Origin: a virus
DNA length: 32,481 nt
Virus record (IMG/VR): IMGVR_UViG_3300025674_000201
Coordinates: 1 to 32,481 of that record
Direction: 5' to 3' (one strand)
The notes below the pieces were generated by a model. It was not told the origin of the DNA, did not search any database, and saw only the letters and a program-made list of their open reading frames with translations. Position numbers and translations under genes: made by a program. How positions within the stretch are numbered: the stretch's first letter is position 1; each line of letters opens with the position of its first letter. Shown piece by piece: positions 3,431 to 30,400 of the stretch.

Positions 3431-4066
3431 TTACAGTGTACTGAAGGCGGCCTCTGCGACGGTAGGGAAACACCGTCTGAAAACCTTGAGACATTGTTCA
3501 GCAATGACTCTGTGCTCAAGCTGTGTTTCCTCACTGGTCCGTATAAGGATGAAGTGAATCCAACTGCGAAGTGTGCCTTGCATGTACAGCGTCGTTGGAG
3601 TGCAGAGCGGCAAAATTCTCCGCGCAGTTTCCTTTGCAACACCCCGCTCCAGCATTGATTCATAGAGCAAAAAGGCATCACTAATCACCCTACCCGCACT
3701 GATCTGAAGATTCTGCTGGTGCGTAGGGTGAATATCGTCAAAGCTATTCTGTCGATTCTTCTCATCCTGCCGCCTAAACATCGGAATCTCGGCAGGGCTA
3801 GTGCGGCTGTAACGAGTTGAAAACTCCTGGAACGCGAACGACTTGTGCCGTATGATCTGCGCTGCAATATCCCGTTCCGTCTCAATCTTCACGCACAAAT
3901 TGGCCATTTCAAAGGGCGACCAATGACTGTGTTTGATCAAGTACCGTAAGAGCCCTGGTCCGGTCTCCCAGTTATCTTCGTTAGCGGGGTTACTAACACG
4001 CGCCATCTTGACGATGAGCTTTTCAGCGTCGGGCGTTGCCCAAACAAGTTCAACCTTTTTTGTCAT
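3431..4066 (-). CDS. thyX: Flavin-dependent thymidylate synthase ThyX
   Basis: 211 residues, normal for the family. The ThyX signature RHRxxSxxxxSxRY is present as RHKSFAFQEFSTRYS. The C-terminal region (ETARRILPLCTPTTLYMQGT) and the final FAD/dUMP-binding helices are also recognisable. The enzyme makes dTMP from dUMP using FAD, methylene-tetrahydrofolate and NADPH, feeding phage DNA synthesis. Its start overlaps the stop of the upstream zinc-ribbon gene by four bases (ATGA), so they are translationally coupled. ThyX genes are frequent in cyanophages. Confidence 0.95.
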   Translation of the reverse strand: MTKKVELVWATPDAEKLIVKMARVSNPANEDNWETGPGLLRYLIKHSHWSPFEMANLCVKIETERDIAAQIIRHKSFAFQEFSTRYSRTSPAEIPMFRRQDEKNRQNSFDDIHPTHQQNLQISAGRVISDAFLLYESMLERGVAKETARRILPLCTPTTLYMQGTLRSWIHFILIRTSEETQLEHRVIAEQCLKVFRRCFPTVAEAAFSTL

Positions 4067-4290: not shown

Positions 4291-4505
4291 CAGATAACCT
4301 CCATCAGTTTTACTTTTTGAGTTCCGTCTTTCATACGCCTGCCCACCCACTGAACGGCACCATCGGGCAAGACCTTTTCACCATCCTGGTACGTGTACCA
4401 CCTGTGCTCGCACTTGGCACAGCGCCGACGCCGCACTTTGACAACTTCATCGACTGTTCTAGTGAGGATGACTTTAGAAACGGGGTGATGGCAATTAGGA
4501 CACAT
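4290..4505 (-). CDS. NrdR-like zinc-ribbon protein, 71 aa (first of a pair)
   Basis: ATG at 4505 opens directly on MCPNCHH and overlaps the 3' end of the sigma-factor gene by 11 bases. The ribbon is CPNC ... RRRRCAKCEHRWYTYQ, a close match to the NrdR N-terminal consensus (RRRRECLxCxxRFTTYE). The C-terminal tail is basic (VGRRMKDGTQKVKL). No ATP-cone follows, so it cannot sense dATP/ATP as NrdR does. Coupling to a sigma factor upstream and thyX downstream suggests control of transcription or nucleotide metabolism; that is inference. Confidence 0.65.
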   Translation of the reverse strand: MCPNCHHPVSKVILTRTVDEVVKVRRRRCAKCEHRWYTYQDGEKVLPDGAVQWVGRRMKDGTQKVKLMEVI

Positions 4506-5349
4506 GGTTTCGATGAGTTGAAATGACACGAAGTTTGGTGAGCGCTTTCTGGCACCTCTGCCTGGCACGCTCCCTAGAGATTCCGTGTTCCCTGGAGAGC
4601 TTAAGGTACGTCTTGGGCTCGCCGCCTTTGAGGGCAAAAAGCCCTTCAAGCAAGCTCCGATCAATCGGATCAAGCCGAGCCAGCAAGTCATTAGCGTCAT
4701 CAAAGGCCCAAAGATCCTGGAGCTGATCCATGGGATGCTCGCCGTCAGTAATACTGTCAATCAACGCAACGTCGTTATCCGTTGTGATGATCTTGCGGTC
4801 GAGACTGACGCAATCCGAACTCCGCTCCAGGTACTCACGCATCCTTTGCGGGTTGGTTTTGCAATACTCGGCGCATTCCTCGATGGTGGGTTGTCTGCCG
4901 TGGATCGCATAGAACTGAGGCGACCACACACGAAGTTTTGACAGCATCTCCACCGCATGGGACGGCAGCCGAATAATCCTGTCATTACAACTGAGGTAAC
5001 GAGTGATCGACTGCCGGATCCACCAATAGACGTAGGTAGACAGTGCATACCCACGCTCAGGATCAAACTTTTTAATGCCATGCGCCAGCCCGATATTCCC
5101 CTCCTGCACAATGTCGAACATCTCCGACCTTCGCGCATGGGGCGTATACCGCTTTGCGATCGAAACAACCAAGCGTAGGTTGCAGTTGATCAGTTTTTCG
5201 TACGCTCGCCGTCCGATGCGCTCCTGCTTGCTGGTCAGATTTTCTGTATTGACCCAGGTTTGCACCTGACGAGCCAGCATAATCTCCTGCTCTTTAGTGA
5301 GCAACGGATACCGAACAATGTCTTTTAGATACTTACTAAACCCTTCCAT
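4495..5349 (-). CDS. Sigma-70 family RNA polymerase sigma factor
   Basis: 284 residues from ATG 5349 (TTG 5352 is possible). Regions are visible in order: 1.2 (YLKDIVRYPLLTKEQEIMLA), 2.1-2.2 (NLRLVVSIAKRY, DIVQEGNIGLAHGIKKFDPE), 2.3-2.4 (ALSTYVYWWIRQSITRYL), region 3, and 4.2 (LSREHGISRERARQRCQKAL). The architecture is that of cyanobacterial primary/group-2 sigma factors without an acidic region 1.1. It would direct host RNA polymerase to phage promoters. The gene starts three bases after the stop of the gene before it and is followed by two zinc-ribbon genes and thyX. Confidence 0.93.
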   Translation of the reverse strand: MEGFSKYLKDIVRYPLLTKEQEIMLARQVQTWVNTENLTSKQERIGRRAYEKLINCNLRLVVSIAKRYTPHARRSEMFDIVQEGNIGLAHGIKKFDPERGYALSTYVYWWIRQSITRYLSCNDRIIRLPSHAVEMLSKLRVWSPQFYAIHGRQPTIEECAEYCKTNPQRMREYLERSSDCVSLDRKIITTDNDVALIDSITDGEHPMDQLQDLWAFDDANDLLARLDPIDRSLLEGLFALKGGEPKTYLKLSREHGISRERARQRCQKALTKLRVISTHRNHVS

Positions 5350-5352
5350 CAA

Positions 5353-6243: not shown

Positions 6244-8178
6244 TTAGTGGATTTCAGACCACCGTTTGCCAACCGAGGGTTCCGCCAAAGGCGGGATGTC
6301 ACCCAACCACTTCGATTCGGCGGTCTCCATGACTTGTTTTAGCTGGTCTGCCCAATGCTGAGCCTTGTCTTCACGCACCAGCAGCAAAATTTCATCATGA
6401 ATACAGGCCGCAATCCGCACTTCGTCCTCTCCAGCTTTGGAAAGCAGGGGCCAGAGATTACCTAAGGCGCACTTAAGGATGGCTGCACCAGCGCCCTGGA
6501 TCGGCGTATTGCACCGAACAGTCAGCCGATTCATATCGCCAGGCAGCAACCGCCGCATACCAGAGCCCGGAATACGCACCTCAGCGAACTTGTCGCCCTC
6601 GCTGTTTCGCGCGTCATCAGAGTTTTGCTGCTGCCACTCTTTAATACCGTGGTACGTATTTAGCCACTGTTGCCGAATATCTCCGGCCTCCTCGATCGTC
6701 ATAACGATGCCAGACGCGCCAGCGTAATCCCGCAGCCCTTTGGCCCCTGATCCATAAAGCAGGCCAAAATTTGCAGATTTTGCAATTTGTCTGGAGCACC
6801 CGATGGCCTCAGCGGTCACGGTATGGAGGTCTTCCCCATCCTGGAACGCTTTGGTCATCCTCTCGTCTTTAGCCACTGCCGCAGCGAGTCGTAATTCCAT
6901 CTGACCAAAATCCGCATCAACAAGCAGATAACCATCAGGAGCTTCAACGCATTGACGGAACTCCGTATCACGGGGAATCTGCTGGTTGTTGGGTTTAATG
7001 CAGGACATTCGACCTGACTCGGCTCCAAGCTGCAGATAGCTGGCACGAACAAAACCATCGGGATCCATTTTGTCGAGGATTGATTCGACCATCTGCCGCC
7101 GCTTTTCCGCCTTCTTCCAAGCGAGATAGGTCTGCACGACATGATGATCAGCGGCGTGCTGCTGGAGCGCAGCCCGCGACGCACTATTTTTACCTGTCTT
7201 GGGGTCTTTGGGTGCTTCCCCCAGCAGAGCGGCGAACTTTTCCAGCAGTTGCTTAGGGCTATTCAGGTTGAACCCCGCCTCTCGCTTGGTCCCAAGACGA
7301 GCAACACCAGTAGCTTTAGGCCGGAGGTTGAAGACCGCTGGCGCGTTCTCCAGTTCCTCGATCTCTTCGTACCACCGCTCATACTGCGCATCGTCATGTC
7401 CCATTTCGGTGACCATGCGCCGGAGTCGCGCAAGTCGCTCAGGATCAGCTGCTTCTCTGGGAAGCTTGTGTTCTTCTGGAAGCGCCGCATCCAACTCTCG
7501 TAAAAAGTCTCGACCGAGCGCATCAATGTCGTGCTGGTAGTCATCACGTAGCTGTTCAAGGCTGGAACGGTTCCAAGGCAGCCCGGTACGCCACATCTGT
7601 GCCATAGCCGGAAGCGCTTTGCACTCTAGTTGGAACGCCCCAATCAACCTTGTTTTGGCAAGCATCTGTGTGAGCTTGACCTCCAAATCCAGGAGCAGTT
7701 CAACATCCCTAGCGGCGTAGACCAATTGGTCTCGATTTAAGACTGGAGCGCCCCAATCGGACTTCTGCTGCTCTTTATCCACCTCAACCTTGAGGTAACG
7801 CTTAGCGACCTGTGCCAGACCGTGCTTGAGGTTAGGTGTGCCGTTGTAGTGCAGCTTGCTGGCGAGCATTGTGCAGAGAACACGTCCCTCGACGTAGATT
7901 CCCTGCTCCTGAAGCCAGCCAAGATCAAAGACAGCATTGTGTGCGATCCAGGTCCGCTCCGTAGAGAAAAACTCCTCTAAGTGTTTCCAGTCCTGTTCCT
8001 CCAGCTCAAAACAGTCGATGATGACGATGGCTTTGGCGGTAGAGCAGCCGAGCTGAATCAAGCGCAGCTTGCCCTGCTCTGGTTGCAGCTGGAGCGTCTC
8101 CGTATCAAAGGCAAGGGTATGGGCAGCCGAGATCTCATCGAGATGCTCGACGCCATACAGAATTTTGTAGTCAGACAT
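6244..8178 (-). CDS. polA: Family A DNA polymerase with 3'-5' exonuclease domain
   Basis: 644 residues, with no 5'-3' exonuclease domain, as in phage enzymes. The proofreading domain shows exo I FDTET (about residue 24), exo II NAVFDLGWL (about 79) and the DEDDy exo III YAARD (about 155). The polymerase domain shows motif A DFGQMELRLAA (about 419), motif B RQIAKSANFGLLYGSG (about 466) and motif C HDEILLLV (about 594). The motif B position equivalent to E. coli residue 762 is Phe, the form that discriminates against dideoxynucleotides. It is the replicative polymerase of this phage. Confidence 0.95.
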   Translation of the reverse strand: MSDYKILYGVEHLDEISAAHTLAFDTETLQLQPEQGKLRLIQLGCSTAKAIVIIDCFELEEQDWKHLEEFFSTERTWIAHNAVFDLGWLQEQGIYVEGRVLCTMLASKLHYNGTPNLKHGLAQVAKRYLKVEVDKEQQKSDWGAPVLNRDQLVYAARDVELLLDLEVKLTQMLAKTRLIGAFQLECKALPAMAQMWRTGLPWNRSSLEQLRDDYQHDIDALGRDFLRELDAALPEEHKLPREAADPERLARLRRMVTEMGHDDAQYERWYEEIEELENAPAVFNLRPKATGVARLGTKREAGFNLNSPKQLLEKFAALLGEAPKDPKTGKNSASRAALQQHAADHHVVQTYLAWKKAEKRRQMVESILDKMDPDGFVRASYLQLGAESGRMSCIKPNNQQIPRDTEFRQCVEAPDGYLLVDADFGQMELRLAAAVAKDERMTKAFQDGEDLHTVTAEAIGCSRQIAKSANFGLLYGSGAKGLRDYAGASGIVMTIEEAGDIRQQWLNTYHGIKEWQQQNSDDARNSEGDKFAEVRIPGSGMRRLLPGDMNRLTVRCNTPIQGAGAAILKCALGNLWPLLSKAGEDEVRIAACIHDEILLLVREDKAQHWADQLKQVMETAESKWLGDIPPLAEPSVGKRWSEIH

Positions 8179-9976: not shown

Positions 9977-10275
9977 TACTTAAAAAGATTAAGTTGTGCC
10001 GGTGGACCGGCATCAGGGAGGTTAGCCGAGCCCTGCTTGGTTTGAGCAAAGCGGGTCTTGCCTTGGCGGTCCCGTATGGCAAGTGATTCCCAGAAGACGT
10101 ACCAGGCGAGGTCTTCGCTTTCGTCGTTTTCCACAGCCTCACGGGAAACCAAATGCGCCGCCAAGGCAGGAGGCCGGATGGAGCGGAAGTAGGAAGCCCA
10201 CTCCCTAGCCGCCTGTCGGGCAGCCAGGGAATCGGGATTAGGGAACTTGTCGCGGGTCAGTCCCACTGCTTCCAA
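9976..10275 (-). CDS. About 96-99-aa protein following the primase-helicase
   Basis: The start is TTG 10275 or GTG 10266, both inside the 3' end of the primase-helicase gene, which ends at 10257. The central part is protein-like (ARQAAREWASYFRSIRPPAL, then EDLAWYVFWESLAIRD), with a C-terminal LNLFK. No family recognised. Overlaps at both ends make it a coupled operon member. Confidence 0.55.
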   Translation of the reverse strand: MEAVGLTRDKFPNPDSLAARQAAREWASYFRSIRPPALAAHLVSREAVENDESEDLAWYVFWESLAIRDRQGKTRFAQTKQGSANLPDAGPPAQLNLFK

Positions 10276-12674
10276 CCTTGATCGAGCATCCGGTCTAGCT
10301 CCTCTTTGGTGCGGTCGCCATCATCGTCCCTCGCGCGGGGATATTGATCTGAGTGTCCACCTGAGGCAGATTCCGCTCCAGCACTGGGTTTAGCAGGTGG
10401 ACACCCCCCTGTTTTCGACCCAAAGTGTCCACCTGGTTGGTCGGAGCAGGTGGACACATCATCCAAATTTGGGGAGTGTCCACCTGGTTGTCCACCTGCA
10501 AAACCCGCACCAGCACTAGCTTTCGTCCCAGGTGGACACATATCACCATCCTCCCCGCACGCGAGGACTGCTCTGTAGTGCTGGATCGGACTACCTCCTC
10601 CCTTTTTCGGGGTCGTCATCACCACCTCAATCAACCCCCTCTTCACAAGGCGCTGGAGCGACTTCTGAATTGCGGCGACCTTGCCACCCACGATTGGATC
10701 GGAGTTGAGGTCCGTCCGGGAGAAAGTGCGGGGGTATCCAACCCGCAACCGCTGCAGAACTCGATCAGTAATTCCACTGGGAGCAGCGTTGGTTGGATCG
10801 ACCTCAGGGGTGAAGTCAGCGATGGAGAAGCTGAGGTCATCTTCCTGGCGCATGATCAGCGACGTCCCAGAGCGCCCAGCACGGCTCTTCTCGATCGTGA
10901 TGATCCGAGAGTGCGCTGGAGCGGTTCCCTTCTCCACCTGGTCCTTAGAGGGCTTCTTCAGCGCCCAGGTCTCATCCACAGCGTCACGGATAGCGGAGGT
11001 GCCCCTAAAGCCGCCCTGCTTGTTGGCGTGATGAACGATGAGGATCGTGGCCGCAGGGAACAGCACGCCGTTGTTCCTGGTGAGCCAGTAGAGGGGCGTC
11101 GCAAAGTCGGACTTGTTCTCGTCAAAGGCCCGACCACCGGAGCAACCGATAAGCGAGTCAATGACAACCAGAGCGGGCTTGACGTCGCGCATCATCTTGA
11201 TGAACTGCGCGTACCGCTGGAGCGACCAGTCCGTAAGGATCTTGGTTCGATCGTCCAGGGGGTACTCCACCTCCTCCAGCTGCTCCTTGAGCTGAATCAG
11301 GGGCTGATCACCATTCAGCAGCAGAACAGGCCCCTGCTTAACGGGCATGTGCTTCCCACGCACAACGAATGGCTGGCCCGTTGCAATGTGCTTAGCGAGT
11401 GTCCAAGCGGACATGGACTTGCCATCACCGCCAGCGCCATAGATCAGGACAACCGAGGGATGAGGGAGAACATCGGGGATCAGGTAATCCCGCTTGTCAT
11501 CCATCTGCGCAAATTTCTGGGCATCCATAAGCCCAGTGGCACCCTCGAACTGAATCTGATCAACGATGAGCTTTTCAAGTGCAAGCTGATCTCGATAACC
11601 CGCCTGGAGCGCGAGGTTATTGAGGTTGAAGTTCATCTCCGCCGGGTTGTCCATTTCGAGGTAGGACTTGGCCTTTTCGATGACTTCGCCAAACGAAAGA
11701 GTTGCGCGTGCATAGAAGATCGGTTTCGCTTCGATCTCGTCCACCAGTGATGTAAGACCGTCCCTCTGAAATCGGGCCCTCTCTGGGTCGTAATGATCCG
11801 CGAGCTTGACGAGCGAACCAAAGCCAAGCCCGCCATTGGACTTAAAGCCAGCATTCCAGCGCTCAAGGCAGGGGTCTTCACCGTCCGCCCAGTCATCGCT
11901 GTACTCGTCATCCTGGAGCGACCACTGCCTCCAGAGGTTGAGACCCTCATCATTGGGCAGTTCGGAGTGGAGCATGGCTCCGATACGCCACCAGAGGTCT
12001 TCAGAGCCGCGACCCTGAGGCTGAATCACAGAGAGACAAGATTCCGCGATGGTGATCTTTTCTTCCTTGGAGCGCATGGAATAGCGCCCGTCTTTGGCCT
12101 GCTTAGAGGCGGTTTTGTTGTTCTTCTCCTTGAACGACTCGTGCATCCGGGCCACAAGCCACCCAGGAGCCTCTGGAACAGCATTCAGATCACCTTCAAG
12201 GGTGTATGTCCCTCCCTTGGGATAAGCGCCTCCTACAAGCCCCTGACGGCCCCACAGAACCTCCCAGCCTTCACCGCTTGCAGCCAAGCTGATGTCCGAT
12301 ACACCAGTCCAAAGCTCGACTGGAACGGTGAACAGGAACTTGGCTGCAGCCTTTTTAGGGGACTTAATGCGAGGCGCCTTTTCAAGGTCCGCACCCCACT
12401 TCTTCATGACGGCGCCGAGGTTGGCGTCAACGTCAAGAATTACGAGGCCCTTACTGCGAGGTCCAGTGAATACCCCAATTGCCTGGAACGTCTCAGGGGA
12501 GCGTTCGATGTAGAGGGCAGCAGCTTCAGGGGAGAGGTCTTCGTGGTGAGCGCGACCAAGCGGATTTTTACCGCAAGCCTCACCGCCTTTAGGCATGGTG
12601 ACGCCCTTTGCATAAATGGGAGCGCAAGCCCAATGAGAGGGCAGAGAACGCGCAAACCCAACCAATTTGTCCAT
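10257..12674 (-). CDS. Bifunctional primase (Prim-Pol type) - superfamily helicase, replication protein
   Basis: 805 residues from ATG 12674, with AGGAG (read on the - strand) as ribosome-binding site. The N-terminus resembles Prim-Pol (GVFTGPRSKGLVILDVD, residues 67-83, with the acidic DxD). A PriCT-like segment follows (RGSEDLWWRIGAMLHSELPN). The ATPase has Walker A GAGGDGKS (about 412-419) and Walker B LVVIDSLIG (about 502), with VHHANKQGGFRGTSAIRDAV as in RepA/AAA_25 helicases. A winged-helix-like segment (QKSLQRLVKRGLIEVV) precedes a Gly/Pro-rich tail. The usual sxH histidine of Prim-Pol appears to be Lys (AAAKFLF, about 109-115). The tail is encoded by an inverted-repeat array that may be the origin. 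Confidence 0.85.
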   Translation of the reverse strand: MDKLVGFARSLPSHWACAPIYAKGVTMPKGGEACGKNPLGRAHHEDLSPEAAALYIERSPETFQAIGVFTGPRSKGLVILDVDANLGAVMKKWGADLEKAPRIKSPKKAAAKFLFTVPVELWTGVSDISLAASGEGWEVLWGRQGLVGGAYPKGGTYTLEGDLNAVPEAPGWLVARMHESFKEKNNKTASKQAKDGRYSMRSKEEKITIAESCLSVIQPQGRGSEDLWWRIGAMLHSELPNDEGLNLWRQWSLQDDEYSDDWADGEDPCLERWNAGFKSNGGLGFGSLVKLADHYDPERARFQRDGLTSLVDEIEAKPIFYARATLSFGEVIEKAKSYLEMDNPAEMNFNLNNLALQAGYRDQLALEKLIVDQIQFEGATGLMDAQKFAQMDDKRDYLIPDVLPHPSVVLIYGAGGDGKSMSAWTLAKHIATGQPFVVRGKHMPVKQGPVLLLNGDQPLIQLKEQLEEVEYPLDDRTKILTDWSLQRYAQFIKMMRDVKPALVVIDSLIGCSGGRAFDENKSDFATPLYWLTRNNGVLFPAATILIVHHANKQGGFRGTSAIRDAVDETWALKKPSKDQVEKGTAPAHSRIITIEKSRAGRSGTSLIMRQEDDLSFSIADFTPEVDPTNAAPSGITDRVLQRLRVGYPRTFSRTDLNSDPIVGGKVAAIQKSLQRLVKRGLIEVVMTTPKKGGGSPIQHYRAVLACGEDGDMCPPGTKASAGAGFAGGQPGGHSPNLDDVSTCSDQPGGHFGSKTGGCPPAKPSAGAESASGGHSDQYPRARDDDGDRTKEELDRMLDQGWKQWD
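10354..10538. repeat. Array of seven 10-bp repeats in alternating orientation; candidate replication origin
   Basis: TGTCCACCTG occurs on the + strand at 10354, 10426, 10477 and 10489. Its inverse CAGGTGGACA occurs at 10394, 10447 and 10529. The order is + - + - + + -. All lie within 185 bases in the 3' part of the primase-helicase gene and encode GGH and CPP tripeptides in a low-complexity tail. Clusters of short repeats inside an initiator gene are how phage lambda places its origin in gene O; by analogy this may be the origin here. Confidence 0.6.
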
Positions 12675-14835: not shown

Positions 14836-15141
14836 CTAGCGCAGAGAGCTGATCATTGAAAGGCTGTGCCGGTGGTTTTCATCCCGGCTGGAACGTATGA
14901 AATAACCGCCGCCAATCAGCCGCGATTCAACAGGCAGCCTCCTACTGCCCCAGCCATTCAACTCCAGCATCGGTTGCTTGTAGTGCATCCGTGCTCGCTG
15001 GAGCGCTTCTTGCAAACTCGTCGCAATAGTCATGCAACGGTGGACCGTTCTTCCATTCACCAGCGTCAAAGACACCAGCCGTTCTTCCATAAAATTCGCA
15101 TTCATAGTGAATTTGCCATTCATAGTGAATTTGCCATTCAT
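14836..15141 (-). CDS. Possible 84-101-aa protein with repeated start region
   Basis: Four in-frame ATG codons lie near the 5' end (15141, 15123, 15105 and about 15090), the first three produced by an 18-bp tandem repeat that encodes TMNGKF twice. From the fourth Met the sequence is protein-like (EERLVSLTLVNGRTVHRCMT, IATSLQEALQRARMHYK). It is convergent with the nuclease gene and on the same strand as the HTH gene at 15338. Reality is moderately supported; function unknown. Confidence 0.45.
   Translation of the reverse strand: MNGKFTMNGKFTMNANFMEERLVSLTLVNGRTVHRCMTIATSLQEALQRARMHYKQPMLELNGWGSRRLPVESRLIGGGYFIRSSRDENHRHSLSMISSLR
15100..15135. repeat. 18-bp tandem repeat, two copies plus a partial
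   Basis: Unit ATTCATAGTGAATTTGCC at 15100-15117 and 15118-15135, followed by ATTCATT. On the - strand each unit carries an ATG in the same frame, so changes in copy number would move the start codon of the 14836-15141 frame by six codons. Confidence 0.8.
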
Positions 15142-15337
15142 TAGGTTTTGTGTCCCTGGGGCGTAGTGGGCCCGCCAGAGAACCTAAGCGGTGACCCCTG
15201 GCACGTCAACCGCAATGTTGCGCAGTGCAACTATCGCTATTGCGTGTCATTCTCAACAGCTAGGCACAAAGAAGGGCAGCCAGCCAAGCTAGGCCGACCA
15301 CCCTCGGGTAGTTTGTTTGTATTGGTGCCCTGGGACG
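15142..15337. other. Intergenic spacer with no gene recognised
   Basis: No convincing reading frame is seen. A short hairpin GTTGC/GCAAC lies near 15219. The dispersed motif appears here as CTGGGGCG, CTGGCACGT and CTGGGACGT, the first of a series lacking the TGGARCG form. Confidence 0.4.
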
Positions 15338-15622
15338 TTACATCTTGCGGGCCTTAGCCTCCGCTGCGATGTAGGCGCTGGCGTACTTCGCTATTGCTTC
15401 TGGATCGCCCTTCTCTTCTGCCGCCTGCAGCAGATCAAAGAGAGAATCCAAAGCCTGAGAGACTCGGGACGGTTTGACTGGCTCCGGTAGCGCTTCCCGT
15501 ATCCAGCGGTAGGCGGTGGCACGTGGCACGTCATCAGCCACCAGCGCTGAGGCTATCTGCTGGCGCGTCTGGCCGTCCGCTGCTAGTTCCGCGATGATCG
15601 CGGCTGCGTGTTCCCTATCCAT
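15338..15622 (-). CDS. 94-aa helix-turn-helix DNA-binding protein
   Basis: ATG 15622 was preferred over a longer upstream start because the product then begins at the HTH (DREHAAAIIAELAADGQTRQ). The HTH is TRQQIASALVADDVPRATAY, RWIREAL; the C-terminus is a helical oligomerisation-type region (ALDSLFDLLQAAEEKGDPEA). It faces a regulatory region with GTGAGA/TCTCAC sites. It could be the repressor of this block, or a small-terminase-like protein given its HTH plus helical tail. The first is favoured by the operators. Confidence 0.65.
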   Translation of the reverse strand: MDREHAAAIIAELAADGQTRQQIASALVADDVPRATAYRWIREALPEPVKPSRVSQALDSLFDLLQAAEEKGDPEAIAKYASAYIAAEAKARKM

Positions 15623-15684
15623 TGTGTGGAGAGTGAGGGGAACACAGACACTACATGAGCACAATAGAAAGCGCAAGGGATGCG

Positions 15685-15787
15685 GTGAGACTGGGGCGAG
15701 AATCTCACAGAATCCCACGGCCTAACGGCTGAAACCGCTTGCTGTGACTGGTACGTGGTGAGATTATGGCAAACCGTGAGAATCTCA
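15685..15787. promoter_or_regulatory. Operator cluster: GTGAGA/TCTCAC sites upstream of a + promoter
   Basis: GTGAGA at 15685, GAGAATCTCAC at 15698-15708, GTGAGATT at 15758, and a perfect palindrome TGAGAATCTCA at 15777-15787 (arms TGAGA/TCTCA around one base). The last ends three bases before a -35 box. The sites lie between the HTH gene and a divergent + gene, as expected for a repressor-controlled switch. Confidence 0.6.
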
Positions 15788-15790
15788 GGG

Positions 15791-15819
15791 TTGACGACTG
15801 GAGAGGCTGTCTGTATTGT
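15791..15819 (+). promoter_or_regulatory. Sigma-70-type promoter for the 15851 gene
   Basis: -35 TTGACG (15791-15796), exactly 17 bases, -10 TATTGT (15814-15819); predicted start near 15826, 25 bases before the ATG. The TGAGAATCTCA palindrome abuts the -35 box. Confidence 0.65.
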
Positions 15820-15850
15820 GCTTGGGTAGCTCACCACACTAGGTGTACCG

Positions 15851-16315
15851 ATGATCAAGCTTCAACACTTCACCAAAGCGGATTGGCTGGCACGTGATCA
15901 CGGGCTAGTGGTTCTGTCAGCCTGCTCTGCTTCGTTACCGGCTGGCATCCCTTGGCACGATCACTATGGGAACCGCGTCACAGCCACCACCGCCTACATC
16001 GGCACGGCTGATCAGGCTGGCACGTTACCGAAGGGTTTGGCCTATGGTCGCCTAGTGCACAGCATCCACCAACAGTCCGTGCCCATTGCGGACGTGTTGA
16101 TTGATATTGCCGAACAGTTCGAACTGGTTAGCGCTTATCCGACACGCGACAGCTTTGAGAGCTTCGCGATCGATTGTCTGGGCTTCGGTCGTTGCCCTGC
16201 TGACCGGATTGACGAAGCTCGCCAGCAATGGCGCGACGCTGCCAACACAGTGGATCGTGCTAAGCGTTGCCTCCCTGCGGCTGTCGTGTTGCAGCTAGGC
16301 GAACTGTTCGTCTGA
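15851..16315 (+). CDS. 154-aa protein of unknown function
   Basis: ATG 15851. The protein is soluble, with a mixed alpha/beta look (DHGLVVLSACSASLPAGIPW, then LPKGLAYGRLVHSIHQQSVP) and a C-terminal helical half. No motif or family recognised. It is the first gene behind the operator/promoter pair, so it is probably controlled by the HTH protein. The DNA here carries the CTGGCACG form of the dispersed motif three times. Confidence 0.6.
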   Translation: MIKLQHFTKADWLARDHGLVVLSACSASLPAGIPWHDHYGNRVTATTAYIGTADQAGTLPKGLAYGRLVHSIHQQSVPIADVLIDIAEQFELVSAYPTRDSFESFAIDCLGFGRCPADRIDEARQQWRDAANTVDRAKRCLPAAVVLQLGELFV

Positions 16316-16352
16316 TATAGTATCCGCATTCCTCCCACCCTTAGAGGTTCCT

Positions 16353-16826
16353 ATGTCTGACAACGCTAAGCGCAACGCCAAAGCGCATGCTGAAACAATC
16401 GAAGCGCTTTACGATCTCCACTGCTGGGACGGTACGAGAGAAACTGCTGTAGATCTCGAACCCGAAGCGGTAGAACTAGCTGGGGAGTTTGGCTGGGACT
16501 ATGCCTGCCCGGACGTTTACGCGCTCCGAGAATGGATTGAAACCAGAGTCCGCGAGATTCCGCTTTCTGTGCTCGTTAGATCTGACTGGCATGTGCCGGG
16601 CGACGAGAGCGAAGCGGGCTTCGGTGACTTTGAGTTGCTGCTAACGACAGGCGGCCCAGGCTGTCGCATCACTGGCTGTCTGTATCAGGGAGAGCCAAGC
16701 TACCGCGAAGGAGAGCGCCCAGACATCCAATGGCAAGACTGGGGCGAACCCTGGACTGTCTCGGACTATCGCGTGTCGTCTGATGCGCTCCTGTGGTTCT
16801 GCTGTCTGTTTTACTTCGGCGCTTAA
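16353..16826 (+). CDS. 157-aa protein of a family seen on mobile elements, function unknown
   Basis: ATG 16353. Acidic protein. The second half (VRSDWHVPGDESEAGFGDFE, then LLLTTGGPGCRITGCLY, then QDWGEPWTVSDYR and LWFCCLFYFGA) follows a pattern I associate with hypothetical proteins of plasmids, integrative elements and phages (TGGPxxRIxG...QDWGTPWT...FYFG). No reaction is known to me. A TATAGT box (16316-16321) lies 31 bases upstream. It ends the two-gene segment between operator clusters. Confidence 0.65.
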   Translation: MSDNAKRNAKAHAETIEALYDLHCWDGTRETAVDLEPEAVELAGEFGWDYACPDVYALREWIETRVREIPLSVLVRSDWHVPGDESEAGFGDFELLLTTGGPGCRITGCLYQGEPSYREGERPDIQWQDWGEPWTVSDYRVSSDALLWFCCLFYFGA

Positions 16827-17048
16827 GCGCTGCTGCTAGGTGCTGTGGGATGCTGCTGTGCTGTGTTGGGTATTGAACCTGGCACGTTCCGCAGCGTCTC
16901 TTGTGAGATTTGCCCTTACGCCGCAAGGATTCTCTAGTTCTGTTGTAGTGTTTCAGCGATCTCACCAGCTTGTGAGACAACTATGTAGTTTTGTTAATTC
17001 TCTGGTGTGATCGCCTAGCAAATGCCGGGCAATCGCTTACTGTATTGC
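16827..17048. promoter_or_regulatory. Intergenic region with a second GTGAGA/TCTCAC operator cluster
   Basis: GTGAGATT at 16903-16910, GATTCTCT at 16928-16935, and a perfect inverted pair TCTCAC (16960-16965) - six bases - GTGAGA (16972-16977). The half-sites match those near 15685-15787, suggesting one regulator for both regions. No gene was seen in this stretch. Confidence 0.5.
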
Positions 17049-17276
17049 ATGAGTCACCCACGCTCTCCCAAAATGCTCCAAACAATCCCCCGCCAACGTC
17101 CCACCCTTCCGGGCGAAAACCTGCCACCGGCTCCGCCGATCTGGCATGGTCCGTCACCCCAGCTTCCGCAACTGCCACCAGCTGGCCTTAACGCTGCTGG
17201 TCGGCTGTCGCCCTGCTGCCGTCAGCTTGCCGCCACCGGCTGCGCCCTGCCGCTTTGGTCAGTCGCTGCCGTGTGA
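17049..17276 (+). CDS. Doubtful 75-aa Pro-rich reading frame
   Basis: ATG 17049. The sequence is rich in Pro, Leu and Ala (TIPRQRPTLPGENLPPAPPI). Several frames are open here because the DNA is GC-rich, so an open frame alone is weak evidence. The start lies in a 15-bp segment (GAGTCACCCACGCTC at 17051) that is repeated with one change at the start of the next gene (17330), which might indicate a duplicated expression signal. Confidence 0.25.
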   Translation: MSHPRSPKMLQTIPRQRPTLPGENLPPAPPIWHGPSPQLPQLPPAGLNAAGRLSPCCRQLAATGCALPLWSVAAV

Positions 17277-17309
17277 ACAATTGTTAACGGAAGGCGGCAC
17301 CGTGCCGCC
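17276..17309. promoter_or_regulatory. Two palindromes upstream of the membrane-HTH gene
   Basis: AACAATTGTT (17276-17285) is a perfect 10-bp palindrome. GGCGGCAC (17293-17300) and GTGCCGCC (17302-17309) form an 8-bp perfect inverted repeat around one base. A TATTGT box (17317-17322) follows, 16 bases before the ATG. This could be an operator or a leader hairpin. Confidence 0.45.
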
Positions 17310-17338
17310 GACCGTCTATTGTAGTTCAAGAGTCACCC

Positions 17339-17539
17339 ATGCTCACCATGACCACCACCACCGCCCTTGCCCTGCTGATCGCGGCGTTGCTGCTGCCGCT
17401 GCTGATCCTGCTGTGGCTGACTGAGTCGCGCGGCCAACGCATCCGCCGCTGGCGTGCCGCTGGCCTGCCCTGGCGCGTCATCGCCGACCGTCTCGGCTGC
17501 TCACGATCCACCGCCGCTTGCTGGTCCGCGCAGCCGTAG
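17339..17539 (+). CDS. 66-aa membrane-anchored helix-turn-helix protein
   Basis: ATG 17339 (or ATG 17348). Residues about 8-27 (ALALLIAALLLPLLILLWLT) form a strong transmembrane helix. The rest (RIRRWRAAGLPWRVIADRLG, CSRSTAACW) is a recombinase/MarR-style HTH with a basic face. The N-terminus would be outside or in the membrane and the HTH in the cytoplasm. Not recognised as a known family. It lies directly before the terminase region and its 16-bp repeats. The combination of membrane helix and DNA-binding motif in such a small protein is unusual. Confidence 0.55.
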   Translation: MLTMTTTTALALLIAALLLPLLILLWLTESRGQRIRRWRAAGLPWRVIADRLGCSRSTAACWSAQP

Positions 17540-17557
17540 CGCCGGCGCTGCGGCAGC

Positions 17558-17605
17558 AGTACAACTGAACTACAGTACAACTGAACTACAGTACAACTGA
17601 ACTAC
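17558..17605. repeat. Three perfect 16-bp direct repeats upstream of terL
   Basis: AGTACAACTGAACTAC at 17558-17573, 17574-17589 and 17590-17605, head to tail. An inverted copy of the junction sequence ACTACAGTA occurs as TACTGTAGT at 17678-17686, and an inverted TGAACTAC occurs at 17321-17328. Direct repeats beside the large terminase gene are candidates for terminase small-subunit or packaging-site binding, or for a late-control protein. Confidence 0.8.
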
Positions 17606-17771
17606 TGGGGGGCGGTTGCGATTGTCCGCGAGCAGGTGGCAGGGCAGGGAACTTACTGATACATCTGGACTTTTTTCTACTGTAGTAACCCTAGGGGGGT
17701 AAGGTCGAAAAGTCAACTACTCTGTACTACAGGCCCCCAGAACCGGGCACCCCCACATTCTTTTGTAATAC
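17606..17771. other. Non-coding leader of terL; candidate packaging-site region
   Basis: No gene seen. It contains a G-run after the repeats, a T-run (ACTTTTTTC), TACTGTAGTA (17678), CCCTAGGGGGG (17689) and CTGTA-C-TACAG (17722-17732). The position before the terminase, with unusual composition and repeats, fits a cos/pac or late promoter region. No end sequence can be proved from here. Confidence 0.4.
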
Positions 17772-19022
17772 ATGCCAAAAGCTGCCGAACCGCTGACCCT
17801 CCGCTGGGCCCAAGGCCAAGTATTTGAGGATCGCAGCCGCTTCCGCGTCCTCGTCGCAGGCCGCCGCTTCGGCAAATCCTACCTCTCATGCGTCGAACTC
17901 CTGCGTGGAGCGATCGAAAACCCCGGCCAAACCTACTTTTACTGCGCCCCGACCTACCGCATGGCGAAGGACATTGCCTGGAAAGTCCTCAAACGCCTCG
18001 TCCCCAAGCCTTGGATCAAGAGCAAGAACGAAACCGACCTAAAAATCGAGCTTGTGAACGGCTCAATGATCGAATTAAAGGGCACAGAGAACGCAATGGC
18101 GCTTCGAGGCCGCTCATTATCAGGCGTCGTCCTCGACGAAGCCGCCTTCATGGACTCCGAAGTCTGGTTCGAGGTAATCCGCCCCGCCCTTGCGGACAAA
18201 CAGGGCTGGGCCCTCTTCATTTCCACCCCCGATGGAACGGCCTCATGGTTTTACGAGCTATGGCAATACGCAGATAGCGGCGACGACGACTGGATGCGCT
18301 GGTGCTACACAACAGTTGAGGGCGGGAACGTCCCAAAAGAGGAAGTCGAAGCCGCCCGCGCCCAACTCGACCCCCGCACATTCCGCCAAGAATTTGAAGC
18401 CAGCTTCGAAAACCTAAACGGCCTAGTCGCCATCAGTTTCAGCGACAAAAACATCAGCACCGACGCCATCGACATCAGCGTCCTCCCCCTAATCCTGGGC
18501 GTCGACTTCAACGTCGACCCAATGAGCGGCATCTGCGCGGTCAAAAAGGACGACACGCTCTACGTCTTCGACGAAATCATGCTCAAGGGTGGAGCGACCA
18601 CCTGGGACTTCGCCGAAGAAGTCACCCGCCGCTTCGGCGTGGAGCGCCGCGTAATCGCCTGCCCCGACCCCACCGGCTACGCCCGCAAAACCAGCGGCAT
18701 GGGCGTCACCGACCACACGATCCTCCGCAAATCCGGCTTCACCGTCCAATCTCCCCGCTCCCCCTGGAAGATCCGCGACAAAATCACCGCCGTCAACACC
18801 GCCCTAATGGACGCCACCGGAACACGCCGCACCCTCATCCACCCCCGCTGCAAAGAACTAATCAAATCCCTCCGCACCCTGACCTACACCCCTGGAACGG
18901 GCCTCCCCAACAAAAACCTGGGCGTCGACCACGCCTTCGACGCCTTCGGCTACCTCTGCCTCCAACAATTCAACCTGGCACGTCCCGAAGTTTTAGGCCA
19001 AACCGCCTACCGTTTGTACTAA
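17772..19022 (+). CDS. terL: Terminase large subunit (TerL)
   Basis: 416 residues, normal for a two-domain TerL. ATPase: Walker A GRRFGKS (30-36), Walker B SGVVLDEAAF (about 116-125) and coupling motif ISTP (about 149). RNase H-like nuclease: LGVDFNVD (about 242), CPDPTG (about 297) and DHAFDAFGY (about 386), giving the three acidic metal ligands. It translocates DNA into the prohead and cuts the concatemer. It begins the rightward morphogenesis operon. Confidence 0.97.
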   Translation: MPKAAEPLTLRWAQGQVFEDRSRFRVLVAGRRFGKSYLSCVELLRGAIENPGQTYFYCAPTYRMAKDIAWKVLKRLVPKPWIKSKNETDLKIELVNGSMIELKGTENAMALRGRSLSGVVLDEAAFMDSEVWFEVIRPALADKQGWALFISTPDGTASWFYELWQYADSGDDDWMRWCYTTVEGGNVPKEEVEAARAQLDPRTFRQEFEASFENLNGLVAISFSDKNISTDAIDISVLPLILGVDFNVDPMSGICAVKKDDTLYVFDEIMLKGGATTWDFAEEVTRRFGVERRVIACPDPTGYARKTSGMGVTDHTILRKSGFTVQSPRSPWKIRDKITAVNTALMDATGTRRTLIHPRCKELIKSLRTLTYTPGTGLPNKNLGVDHAFDAFGYLCLQQFNLARPEVLGQTAYRLY

Positions 19023-22926: not shown

Positions 22927-24009
22927 ATGGCCGCACCATTTCAGAATTATTCCGGCGGTGTCCTTCTCGCGGACATCGTAAAAAGGAATAATCTCAGCAC
23001 CTATGTGTCTGAGGCAATCAAAGAGCGCAGCCTGTTCCTGAAGAGCGGTGCTGTTGCTCGCAACCCCCTGCTGGATGCCCGCGAAGGCGGCACCCGCATC
23101 CAAGTCCCCGAGTTCAATCCCGTGTCTCCCACCGAGGAGATCATGGATGGAACGGCAACCTGGGGCACCTCAACCGCTGGCTATCTGACCCCTCAGAAGA
23201 TCGGCACCGGCACCCAAATTGCAACCATTTGCCATCGCGGTTTCGCGTACGCCGTGGACGACGTGGCAATGCTTGCTGCTGGTGAGGATCCGATGGGTCA
23301 CATCCGCAACCAGCTTGCTGATGCCATCAACAAGAAGAACAGCGAGCGTCTGTTCTCCCAGCTTGCCGGTCTGTTCGGCACCGCTCTGAGCGCCAACGCC
23401 CTCGACAAAGGCGTTGCTGCTGCCTCTGGTGCGGATGAGGACAACTTCCTGACCGCCGCAACTGTTGCCGAAGCCCGCGCCAAGCTGGGCGAGCGTGGCG
23501 ACGAGCTGGACGTGCTGGTTGTCCACCCCTCCGTCGGCTTCTACCTGTATCAGGTGGGCATGCTGACCTTCTCCACCTCAGCACTCGCCGCATCCGGCGC
23601 TGTGACCTGGGGCGGTGGCGGCGTGGGCGTTGGCGCACGCAGCATCGGCCAATTCGCCGGTTGCGACGTGATCATGGATCCCTCGGTGAACACCGTGGCT
23701 CCTGGCACCTCCACCCACCAGATCGAGTTCTACTGCTACCTGACCAAGCGTGGCACGATCCTCGAAGGTGTGCAGCAGGATCTCCGCATCGAAGCCGACC
23801 GCAACGTGCTCTCGAAGCAGGACGTCCTCTCCGTGGATTACCACACCGCCTACCACGTCATGGGCACCAAGTGGACCAACGCAGGCGACAACCCGACCAA
23901 CACTGGTCTGGCCACCGCAGGCAACTGGAGCGCCACCTACGACATCGACCTGATCCCCATGGTTCAGCTCACCGTCAACAGCCCCCTCGACACCTCCGTC
24001 ATCGCCTGA
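22927..24009 (+). CDS. Major capsid protein (HK97 fold expected)
   Basis: 360 residues from ATG 22927. The N-terminal arm (NLSTYVSEAIKERSLFLKSG), the segment EGGTRIQVPEFNPVSPTEEI, the long helix (NQLADAINKKNSERLFSQLA) and the C-terminal LVVHPSVGFYLYQVG region are typical of phage major coat proteins. Codon choice is strongly biased to C-ending codons, as for a highly expressed gene. It is followed by a strong terminator. Confidence 0.88.
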   Translation: MAAPFQNYSGGVLLADIVKRNNLSTYVSEAIKERSLFLKSGAVARNPLLDAREGGTRIQVPEFNPVSPTEEIMDGTATWGTSTAGYLTPQKIGTGTQIATICHRGFAYAVDDVAMLAAGEDPMGHIRNQLADAINKKNSERLFSQLAGLFGTALSANALDKGVAAASGADEDNFLTAATVAEARAKLGERGDELDVLVVHPSVGFYLYQVGMLTFSTSALAASGAVTWGGGGVGVGARSIGQFAGCDVIMDPSVNTVAPGTSTHQIEFYCYLTKRGTILEGVQQDLRIEADRNVLSKQDVLSVDYHTAYHVMGTKWTNAGDNPTNTGLATAGNWSATYDIDLIPMVQLTVNSPLDTSVIA

Positions 24010-27490: not shown

Positions 27491-30400
27491 GTGGCTTACA
27501 AGACAGAAATCCAGATCGGCGTAAAGGGAACAGCTGCTCTCGATAAGCTCCGCAAAAACATAAGCGATCTAAGCGAAAAAGTAGATTTAGTCGATAAAGG
27601 TTTTAAGGATGGCATTCAGTCTGTAGACAGATACGAAAAAGCGCTGAAAGAGGCTGCAAACGCACTTCGAACAGTAAGAATCAATACTGATGACGAGAGA
27701 CAAGCGATACAAAACTACGTAACAGCATTAGGAAACGCAAACGGAGCACTGGACCGTCAAAACAGTCTTATCCAAGAGGAGATTTCGCTTCGCGGTAGAG
27801 CCAAAGTAGAGCTGCAGGCGTACAACGCTGCTGCCGCTGCCGCACGCCCGCCAGGCGGCAGCATGAGCCAGCGCTATCTGCGACCTGGAGCGCCGATCGC
27901 TACCACACAATACGACCAGCCAATCGGTCCAGCTCCTGCATCACCCATAGACGCACTTGTTGGGCAGTCATCTCCAGTGGAGGGCCGCATAAAGAGGATA
28001 AAAGAGGCACAAGATGCTCTAATCGATGCTATGCGGCAAATGCAAGCCGTAGAGCAGAAAATGACTCAACAGGAGCTTATAAACGACGAAAAGGTATTCA
28101 ACAATAAGTTAGAAGACCTGAGAAGATTGCACGCCGAGGAACTAAGACAGATAAAAGCTGCCGATAAGGCAGAGCTAGAAGCATTCGACAAAAAATTAAA
28201 AGCGCGAGAAGAGCTTAAGAAAACCAAAACCGGCACAGCCGGATTCCTCGAACAAGCCGGTGCATTCGGTCTTGGTGCTGGTTTCCCACTGCTGTTTGGC
28301 GGTGGCGTCGGCCAAGTTGCCGGTGGCGCAATAGGAACCGCTCTAGCCAAATCTTTCGGGCTAGCTGGAGAGGCCGCCATGGGCCTTCAGATTGCCCTAT
28401 CTGCAATTTTGGGCAAGGTTGAGGAACTTGTCACCCGCTTTGTCGAGGTCGGCAACGCCGTCAACGCCATCGACATGGACGCGCTGGCGGGCACCTTCAT
28501 AACGGTAAATGCAGAGGCCCGCACCCTGGTACGTGGTTTAATCGAAGCCGGACAATCTCAAGAGGCTCTTTATGAGGCAGCCAGACAGACAGCCTTGCAA
28601 ACGGGCGTGCTACCCGAAGCTACAGCCGACATCACTAACAACGTAAACCTACTTTCAAATACCTGGGACGAAGTTGTAGGTTCTGTTTCCGGCCTAGTTT
28701 CAATTATTGCAACGCCTTTCGTTACTGCACTGACCCTTATTTTGCAGTTAGTTTCAAAAGTTGTTCAAGGTGTAAACATTTGGTTTAGCCTTATAGGCAT
28801 GATACTTAAGAAAACCGGTGAAATTATTCTTCAAATTCCTCTGCTTAAGCCTGTATTAGAGTTCATCCAAAGGAACACAAAAAGTATTGTTGAGGAAGAA
28901 GAAAAGGGTTTAGACGCACTGATAAAGTCCGGTGAAGCCTTGGAGCGTGAAGCCCAAAAGACTCAGAGGATAGCAGCTATTGAAAAGGATCGCACCGCCG
29001 GTCGAACTGCAGCCGAAAAGCTTATCAATGCAGACGTAGACAGACGAGTCAAGCTTGAAGAGCTTAGTGTAGCTACTGCCGAAAAGATACGCCAAAAGAG
29101 AGAAGAGTTCGGCAACTTAACCAGCCATCAAGCGCAGGTAGAGCTTGCCTACCAAGAAATGCTTATCAATCAAGATGCAGATAGGCAGCGAGGAAAAGTA
29201 CAGCAAACTTTTGAGCTTCAGAAGCAAAATATCGAACTTGAAGCACAACGGGAAAAAGAAAAAGAGCTAAAAGAACTGGCCAAAGAAAGGTCAGAAAAAT
29301 ACAAAGAAATGGCCGAGGATGTCAGGCTTCAAACTAGCCTGCTGAACGACCAAGCAACAAGCCTGAATCACCAAGCAGAAATCGCCAACAATATCGCTAG
29401 CTTGAGCAACGCTCGCCGTAAAACAGAATCTGACCTGCTAAATCTGCAAATTGGCCGCCTGGAACGTCAAAAAGAGGAAGCCAAGCACTTCCTCGACAAG
29501 ATCAAGCTCAACAACATCATTATTGAAAAGAGAAAAGAGCAGGCAAAGCTTGAGTACGAGAGCCAGCTGACCAGCATCAAGCTGTCCGTCTCCAAGGCAG
29601 AACAGGAACGTATTCAAATCAAGCTGAAGGAACAGCAAATCAAGCTGCAGCTTGAGCAAGTTCGACTTGAAGCGGAAGCGATCCAAGACGCTGACCGCCG
29701 TAATGCTGCTCTAGGTCGAATCAACAAGCAGGAGCAGTCAACTTTACAAGTAGTTGAGGACATGAACCGGGCTGCTGACCACAGCCTTGCGACGACCCGA
29801 AAGATCGCTGCTTTCCAGCAGCAGTCAGCGAAGTACGCGTACCAAGGCAAGATCGAAGCCTTGGAAACTGCTCGCCAGCAAGAGAGGATGGCAATTTTCC
29901 TCAACAGCCAAAAGGGCAGCATGAACTCCTTGGCAACTCAGTCTGGGCAGTACGCCTCAAACATGGAGCGAGCCGCCAATGCTGCGAAGAACCAAAAAAC
30001 TGCCTTCGAGAGAGGCGAATTAGGCGCTACCAAAACTTTTACAATATCCACCGGCATACCAATCGACGAGGACGTCAGGAAAGCAGTACTGGACAGGGCC
30101 AGATTCAGATCCCCCGAAGAGATGGTCTCGGCACTTGTGGAAGCACAAAAGAAACGGAATAAGCAAAAAATTGTGGAGGAAAGACGGATTGAGAGTCAGC
30201 AGGTTCAGCATCAGCAAGTTCAGGATCGGCTTCAGCATCGGCAAGTTCAGCATCGGCAAGTTCAGCCTCGGCAGGTTGCCTATGCCCAAGGCGGTTTCGT
30301 CAACAGGCCGCACATCGGCATGGTCGGTGAAGGCGGCCCCGAGTACATCATCCCCGAGAGCAAGGCCGCAGCCTTCGCAACCAACTACATGATGGGTGCC

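Follow-up and report, generated by a model that had tools for sequence, protein, structure and literature searches.

A repeat array in the 3′ end of a fused primase-helicase gene as the candidate replication origin of an uncultivated aquatic phage

Results and discussion

The viral genome IMGVR_UViG_3300025674_000201 (all 32,481 nucleotides of the IMG/VR record, hereafter the window) carries in the 3′ end of a fused replication gene an array of short repeats that very probably serves as a cis-acting target for that gene's product and as the replication origin of the phage. On the basis of sequence comparisons, we strongly infer that the sites of the array are bound by the winged helix of the gene's own product. 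Origin activity is suggested by the nature of this binder, a primase-helicase, and by known parallels, since precedents exist in the lambda ori, SaPI and SCCmec. A reading of the raw sequence has thus yielded a specific and testable candidate origin in uncultivated aquatic phages that form a widespread group. With the array as a guide, origins can also be predicted in related genomes from their sequence only.

The replication gene and its protein

The gene is an open reading frame of 805 amino acids on the minus strand (10257–12674), the product of which is composed of a putative Prim-Pol N-terminus, a PriCT-2 domain, a RecA/RepA-like hexameric helicase, a C-terminal winged helix and a disordered tail, in that order. 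Pfam searches recovered PriCT_2 (1.7e-8) and AAA_25 (3.4e-20) above the cut-off; the Prim-Pol match fell just below it (9.6e-4, 20.1 bits versus a cut-off of 22.8), its usual partner PriCT_2 being significant. A Toprim domain of the DnaG type was not found by Pfam in the 805-residue protein, nor was an SF3 helicase, the module being AAA_25 in Pfam and closest to the RecA-like RSF1010 RepA in the PDB. Querying PDB sequences with a profile of the full protein gave no matches. When the full protein model was compared with PDB structures, only helicases were found among the matches listed, the best one being RSF1010 RepA (1olo, E 6e-9), and the top matches of the RecA-like module were 1olo, 1nlf and 1g8y (E 6e-9 to 4e-8).

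The winged-helix DNA-binding domain (residues about 620–706, encoded at 10557–10817 on the minus strand) was delimited in an AlphaFold2 model, in which it has a pLDDT of 80 and the order helix-helix-helix-wing, and it matches many wHTH proteins by fold. A profile of this domain retrieved only weak matches to wHTH regulators among PDB sequences (E 0.02 or worse). In the model, residue 670 (Gln in the window, codon at 10665–10667, minus strand) falls in the recognition helix (residues 666–678) and residue 698 in a wing strand. The low-complexity tail that follows (residues 706–788, 10311–10559, minus strand) is predicted to be disordered, with a pLDDT of about 28.

The repeat array

All copies of the array are found near the 3′ end of the gene, in the part that encodes the tail. 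The original prediction had described seven alternating 10-bp repeats, and its copy number, positions and orientations all proved exact: TGTCCACCTG occurs seven times within 185 bases in the order + - + - + + -. These candidate initiator sites lie at 10354–10363 (+), 10394–10403 (-), 10426–10435 (+), 10447–10456 (-), 10477–10486 (+), 10489–10498 (+) and 10529–10538 (-), and they are the sole exact matches to TGTCCACCTG in the entire record, in which the reversed control pattern has none. Allowing one mismatch, 10 matches were counted in the window, against a mean of 2.0 and a maximum of 7 in shuffled sequences. Because the copies stand in different reading phases, the same ten bases encode GGH/GGQ, CPP or STC, which bears out the proposal that the repeats dictate a tail with GGH and CPP.

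Conservation of the array as DNA

Relatives were gathered through four scans of IMG/VR and one scan of GTDB genomes, and after filtering and removal of identical C-termini the 250 loci amounted to 192 distinct proteins. An array is present at the same place in essentially every relative, but with a different sequence. Within one genome, nearly all copies consist of TGTCC followed by a genome-specific suffix, and this suffix differs between genomes. The density of TGTCC/GGACA was 7.3 per 300 nt in the arrays of 187 relatives versus 0.45 in the upstream coding DNA of the same genes, which served as control. Suffix identity, computed over unselected TGTCC/GGACA sites, was 0.62 within and 0.35 between genomes, and the largest value among 300 shuffles was 0.356. 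We set aside the within-genome identity of selected motif matches, as these had been chosen for their similarity. In 48 of the 187 relatives the best-motif score was no higher than that of the best control region, and our statements about suffixes therefore rest on the clearer three quarters. We counted 300 copies of the genome-specific 9-mer within arrays; 620 kb of sequence outside the arrays yielded 4, for a chance expectation of 4.7.

In the majority of close relatives, the reading frame stays open through the array, which is therefore translated. In distant relatives the gene stops early: of 79 representatives, 27 have at least two sites beyond the stop codon. Overall, 101 of the 595 sites in the 79 representatives are located there, running into non-coding DNA. 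This holds for 7 of 8 sites in L163, 9 of 10 in L177, 7 of 8 in L181 and nearly all of those in L175. The comparison of homologues that had been put forward as a check thus came out in favour of the repeats: amino acids vary and DNA repeats stay, even where the shortened frame leaves them in non-coding DNA. The persistence of sites in non-coding DNA together with the varying tail peptides indicates selection on the DNA and not on the tail peptide, in agreement with the earlier view of the tail, which is predicted to be disordered, as a by-product of the DNA repeats. By similarity of the helicase or primase, the nearest annotated phages are S-CBS4 and S-EIV1, neither of which shows a comparable array at the 3′ end of the gene. 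A search of Rfam returned no family.

Co-variation of the repeats with the recognition helix

The identity of residue 670, the x in the segment AAI-x-KSLQRL, predicts the two bases that follow TGTCC. Genomes with Arg at this position have CA after TGTCC in 76 of 81 cases, those with Lys have CC in 29 of 31, and those with Gln, His, Gly or Thr have A followed by a variable base in 56 of 56. The natural site types are exemplified by TGTCCACCTG with Gln in the window, TGTCCCACCT with Arg (L013 type) and TGTCCCCCT with Lys (L154 type). On a tree built solely from the primase-helicase part of the protein, independent pairs followed this rule 8:0 with 1 tie when A was compared with C at the first base, and again 8:0 with 1 tie when CC was compared with CA (two-sided p 0.008 in each comparison). 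Residue 670 also ranked first of 693 protein columns in tree-based co-change, sharing its branches with 18 of the 23 motif-class changes. Residues 698 (wing) and 677 (recognition helix), both within the winged-helix domain, came next; outside the C-terminal domain, no column exceeded 8 of 23. The p-values of branch overlap are approximate, as branches were treated as exchangeable. The rule has exceptions, namely TGTCCA in three Arg genomes and TGTCCCA in one Lys genome, which suggest that other residues contribute and that 670 is the main but not the sole determinant. The original prediction had named the protein's own winged helix as a possible binder, and this comparative co-variation of residue and motif backs it.

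The relation between residue 670 and the bases after TGTCC is a rule that can be tested by simple binding assays. In addition, the roughly 190 matched DNA-binding domains and target sites constitute a natural series on how initiator and origin specificity changes, and the series is informative because all copies of the site must change along with their reader.

Dyad layout, outer boxes and spacers

The whole candidate origin spans about 237 bp (10330–10566), with a dyad centre near 10446–10448. Two pairs of sites in the window are exact mirror partners (10354–10363 with 10529–10538, and 10394–10403 with 10489–10498), a third (10426–10435 with 10447–10456) is 10 bp off the exact mirror, and the remaining site, at 10477–10486, is an extra one with no partner. 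Across relatives, 237 of 281 possible site pairs match within one base, whereas shuffling the gaps gave 141 on average and at most 153. L190 and L219 provide clean examples, the latter with sites at 42, 83, 103 and 114 on one side and 133, 145, 165 and 206 on the other.

The array is bounded by mirror-image CCCCGCGCGAG boxes, namely CTCGCGCGGGGATATTG at 10330–10346, which reads TATCCCCGCGCGAG outward, and its mirror image CCTCCCCGCACGCGAGG at 10550–10566. The outer element of relatives, read outward, is TATCCCCGCGCGAG or CTCTCCRCGCGCGAG and lies beyond the outermost sites on both sides. Where that side is non-coding, 20 of 22 relatives have kept it; the frequency of CGCG in control stretches is 5%. 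These flanking boxes and the overall dyad symmetry are additions to what had been noticed before. A spacer element of the AGTGCTGGAGCGG type, present as a direct repeat (D4) at 10366–10391 and 10498–10523, lies between the outer two sites on either side of the array. In the form AGTGCTGG(A/T)GCGG it has one orientation at both places and is widely kept in relatives, as is CAGT..TGGAGCGG. Helical phasing of sites in the same orientation was also considered, and no claim is made from it, given that signals at 10 and 12 bp were equally strong and arose from fixed spacings.

Alternative roles of the array

An alternative is an origin that is chiefly structural, that is, a large stem-loop or cruciform of about 240 nt recognised by its shape as in pRN1, with the repeats serving mainly to build the stem. 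The 240-nt element of the window can form one long nested stem, as can its counterparts in relatives, and folds far better than shuffled sequences (z -7.6 as DNA and -8.2 as RNA), its outer flanks pair together in the folds of 64 of 65 relatives, and the spacers add pairing beyond that of sites and boxes (mean z -1.8, with 57 of 65 relatives below 0). Moreover, a 100-nt stem-loop that directly follows the PrimPol gene must stay intact in pRN1 (PMC4234260). However, all copies in a genome are alike and not just those that could pair (0.67 for adjacent +/- sites, 0.61 for non-adjacent opposite sites and 0.62 for sites in the same orientation), and their sequence tracks residue 670 of the recognition helix, both of which a pure stem-loop of the pRN1 kind leaves unexplained. 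In the consensus fold of the relatives, most of the clear compensatory pairs fall in the site suffixes, where they are expected from binder-driven change alone. We therefore regard a chiefly structural origin as unlikely, and a structural role in addition to site binding as possible.

A different purpose for an array bound by the winged helix, be it partition, packaging or control of the next operon as its operator, appears more improbable still. An operator is geometrically feasible in the window, where the next open reading frame begins 79 bp beyond the array on the same strand, but no sigma-70-like promoter was found near the array, the 9-mer is absent elsewhere, including upstream of the gene itself, and by a simple ORF rule 15 of 78 representatives have the next frame on the other strand. 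Furthermore, the binder shares one chain with a primase and a helicase, enzymes that naturally act at an origin, as is established for P4 alpha and RSF1010 (cited in PMC4234260). The restriction of the sites to the array, the lack of a promoter-like site nearby and the nature of the binder thus disfavour an operator or partition role. That the repeats merely follow from selection on a repetitive protein tail with GGH/CPP motifs would fit their translation in most close relatives, but the different phases specify different peptides, the tail is predicted to be disordered, and the arrays that are mostly non-coding in distant relatives such as L163, L177 and L181 exclude this explanation for practical purposes.

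Proposed mechanism of initiation

If the array is an origin read by the winged helix, several protomers would bind the inverted TGTCC-n sites through this domain, as the comparative evidence for binding suggests, and the dyad layout could direct two oppositely facing assemblies onto the two half-arrays. The RepA-like helicase rings might then open and enter the DNA on either side, moving outward, with synthesis primed by the Prim-Pol/PriCT-2 module. Iteron binding, unwinding and priming, the work of three RSF1010 proteins, would apparently be fused here in one chain. The disordered coding tail would be a consequence of the origin lying in the 3′ end of the gene, and the proximity of site and reader, within about 400 bp, would allow them to change jointly and to be transferred as a unit. 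GC skew was uninformative on the position of the origin, drifting with gene direction and showing no switch at the array, and no AT-rich unwinding element was found about the dyad centre, either in the window or averaged over relatives.

More tentatively, the locus may be a self-contained cassette in which primase, RepA-like helicase and origin reader are joined in one polypeptide and the 3′ end of its gene holds a dyad-symmetric origin. Specificity would depend largely on one recognition-helix residue, and the reader and all six to eight sites would have switched jointly at least a dozen times. In its entirety this is a reading that we consider possible and to which we would give slightly less than even weight. 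It would include a residue code in which Gln/His/Gly/Thr, Arg or Lys read TGTCCA, TGTCCCA or TGTCCCC, respectively. Escape from origin-targeting competitors or from superinfecting relatives could be what drives such switching.

Comparison with known replication systems

In phage lambda, as in the window, origin repeats lie within the coding sequence of their binder; the lambda ori sits in the middle of O, the initiator's own gene, other lambdoid phages share this organisation, and their extra repeats add amino acids to a part of O that is not predicted to contact DNA (PMC7466680). The features of the lambda O type found here are repeats in coding sequence that are selected as DNA, together with binding by the gene's own product as indicated by sequence comparison. 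On the other hand, O is neither a helicase nor a primase, whereas the initiator of the window is fused to both. The lambda repeats are mid-gene beside an AT-rich region, while the window array is at the 3′ end with no evident AT-rich neighbour and, unlike that of lambda, has an overall dyad symmetry with outer CGCG boxes.

SaPI and SCCmec resemble the window in that the replicative helicase (SaPI Rep, SCCmec Cch2) recognises, through its C-terminal DNA-binding domain, short repeats located where its own gene ends or directly after it. These initiator helicases bind iterons just downstream of their genes, and SaPI Rep apparently acts as two hexamers (PMC7581432). SCCmec has a separate 3′-to-5′ helicase and a separate primase-polymerase, whereas the window has a RecA/RepA-like helicase and a primase in one polypeptide, with an origin that is usually inside the gene.

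The closest solved structure to the helicase module of the window is RepA of RSF1010, which employs three polypeptides for three jobs, whereas the window phage employs one. To our knowledge, the RSF1010 origin is not inside the gene of its origin-binding protein. The helicase of P4 alpha belongs to SF3, and the P4 repeat GGTGAACA resembles GGTGGACA. A C-terminal winged helix of the P4-alpha kind is predicted here from the model and from its fold matches to wHTH proteins in general; the P4 domain itself was absent among the matches listed by the fold searches, which is no evidence of a difference. RSF1010 initiates through the binding of iterons by RepC, unwinding by RepA and priming by RepB′ (PMC4234260). 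P4 alpha, like the window protein, combines a primase, a helicase and a winged-helix origin-binding domain in a single chain, and it binds short repeats; its primase is of the bacterial Toprim type (PMC4234260). The window protein instead has a putative AEP-like domain with PriCT-2 and a RecA-fold helicase.

The replication proteins pRN1 ORF904 and that of BIP-1/BPP-1 likewise have a helicase and a winged helix, and a candidate origin lies where their gene ends; BIP-1 shares PriCT-2 with the window protein (PMC4234260). Their PrimPol would correspond to the putative Prim-Pol domain of the window. Members of this type have an SF3 helicase and a stem-loop origin lacking iterons, whereas the window combines a RecA-like helicase with iterons, and in pRN1 no specific binding of the protein to the origin was found (PMC4234260). 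Co-variation of initiator and origin has been reported in Vibrio satellites (PLE; PMC8263062), and in-gene and gene-adjacent iteron origins were likewise known. Three features appear to be new: an initiator in which Prim-Pol, PriCT-2, RepA-like helicase and winged helix are fused and the gene of which carries a candidate origin at its 3′ end; the arrangement of the array as a dyad flanked by outer boxes; and a recognition rule of nearly one residue with repeated independent switches. A literature search, in which few subscription papers were covered, found no description of the array or of its co-variation.

Host and repeats at other loci

The major capsid protein of the window (22927–24009) is 75% identical to that of the single-cell Marine virus AG-345-A17, with KBS-S-2A and S-2L as the next matches, and the phage-encoded sigma factor (4495–5352) is closest to that of Synechococcus phage S-CBS1 (41%). 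Apart from the unannotated single-cell marine virus, these relatives are cyanophages, and their similarity makes a picocyanobacterial host likely.

Repeats were also noticed near primase or repA-like genes of other phages. In Synechococcus phage S-H1, nine CTAACGGTC-type repeats (17652–17937) are placed as mirror images around an AT-rich centre. They occupy the 3′ end of an unrelated primase gene of the Zn-ribbon/Toprim type (15092–17683) and the DNA immediately following it, and are likely an origin of analogous layout in a culturable, isolated cyanophage. Five GGGTGGCAC-type repeats (three + and two -) are found in cyanophage S-2L at 2334–2627, at and after the end of the PrimPol gene; this is the same position as that of the window array, a resemblance that is weak when taken alone. 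The Manatee Spring phage MW202711 carries 15-bp tandem repeats of the TGAACGTGCGTCC type inside a repA-like gene (3806–3978) and a cluster of five GTGTCCCCA copies (6646–6747) about 1.5 kb downstream of it. Finally, GCATCGGCA-type repeats occur in the tape-measure gene of the window (30208–30320) at steps of 12–27 bp (mostly 15), where they encode a QVQHRQVQ-like stretch and are probably ordinary protein repeats.
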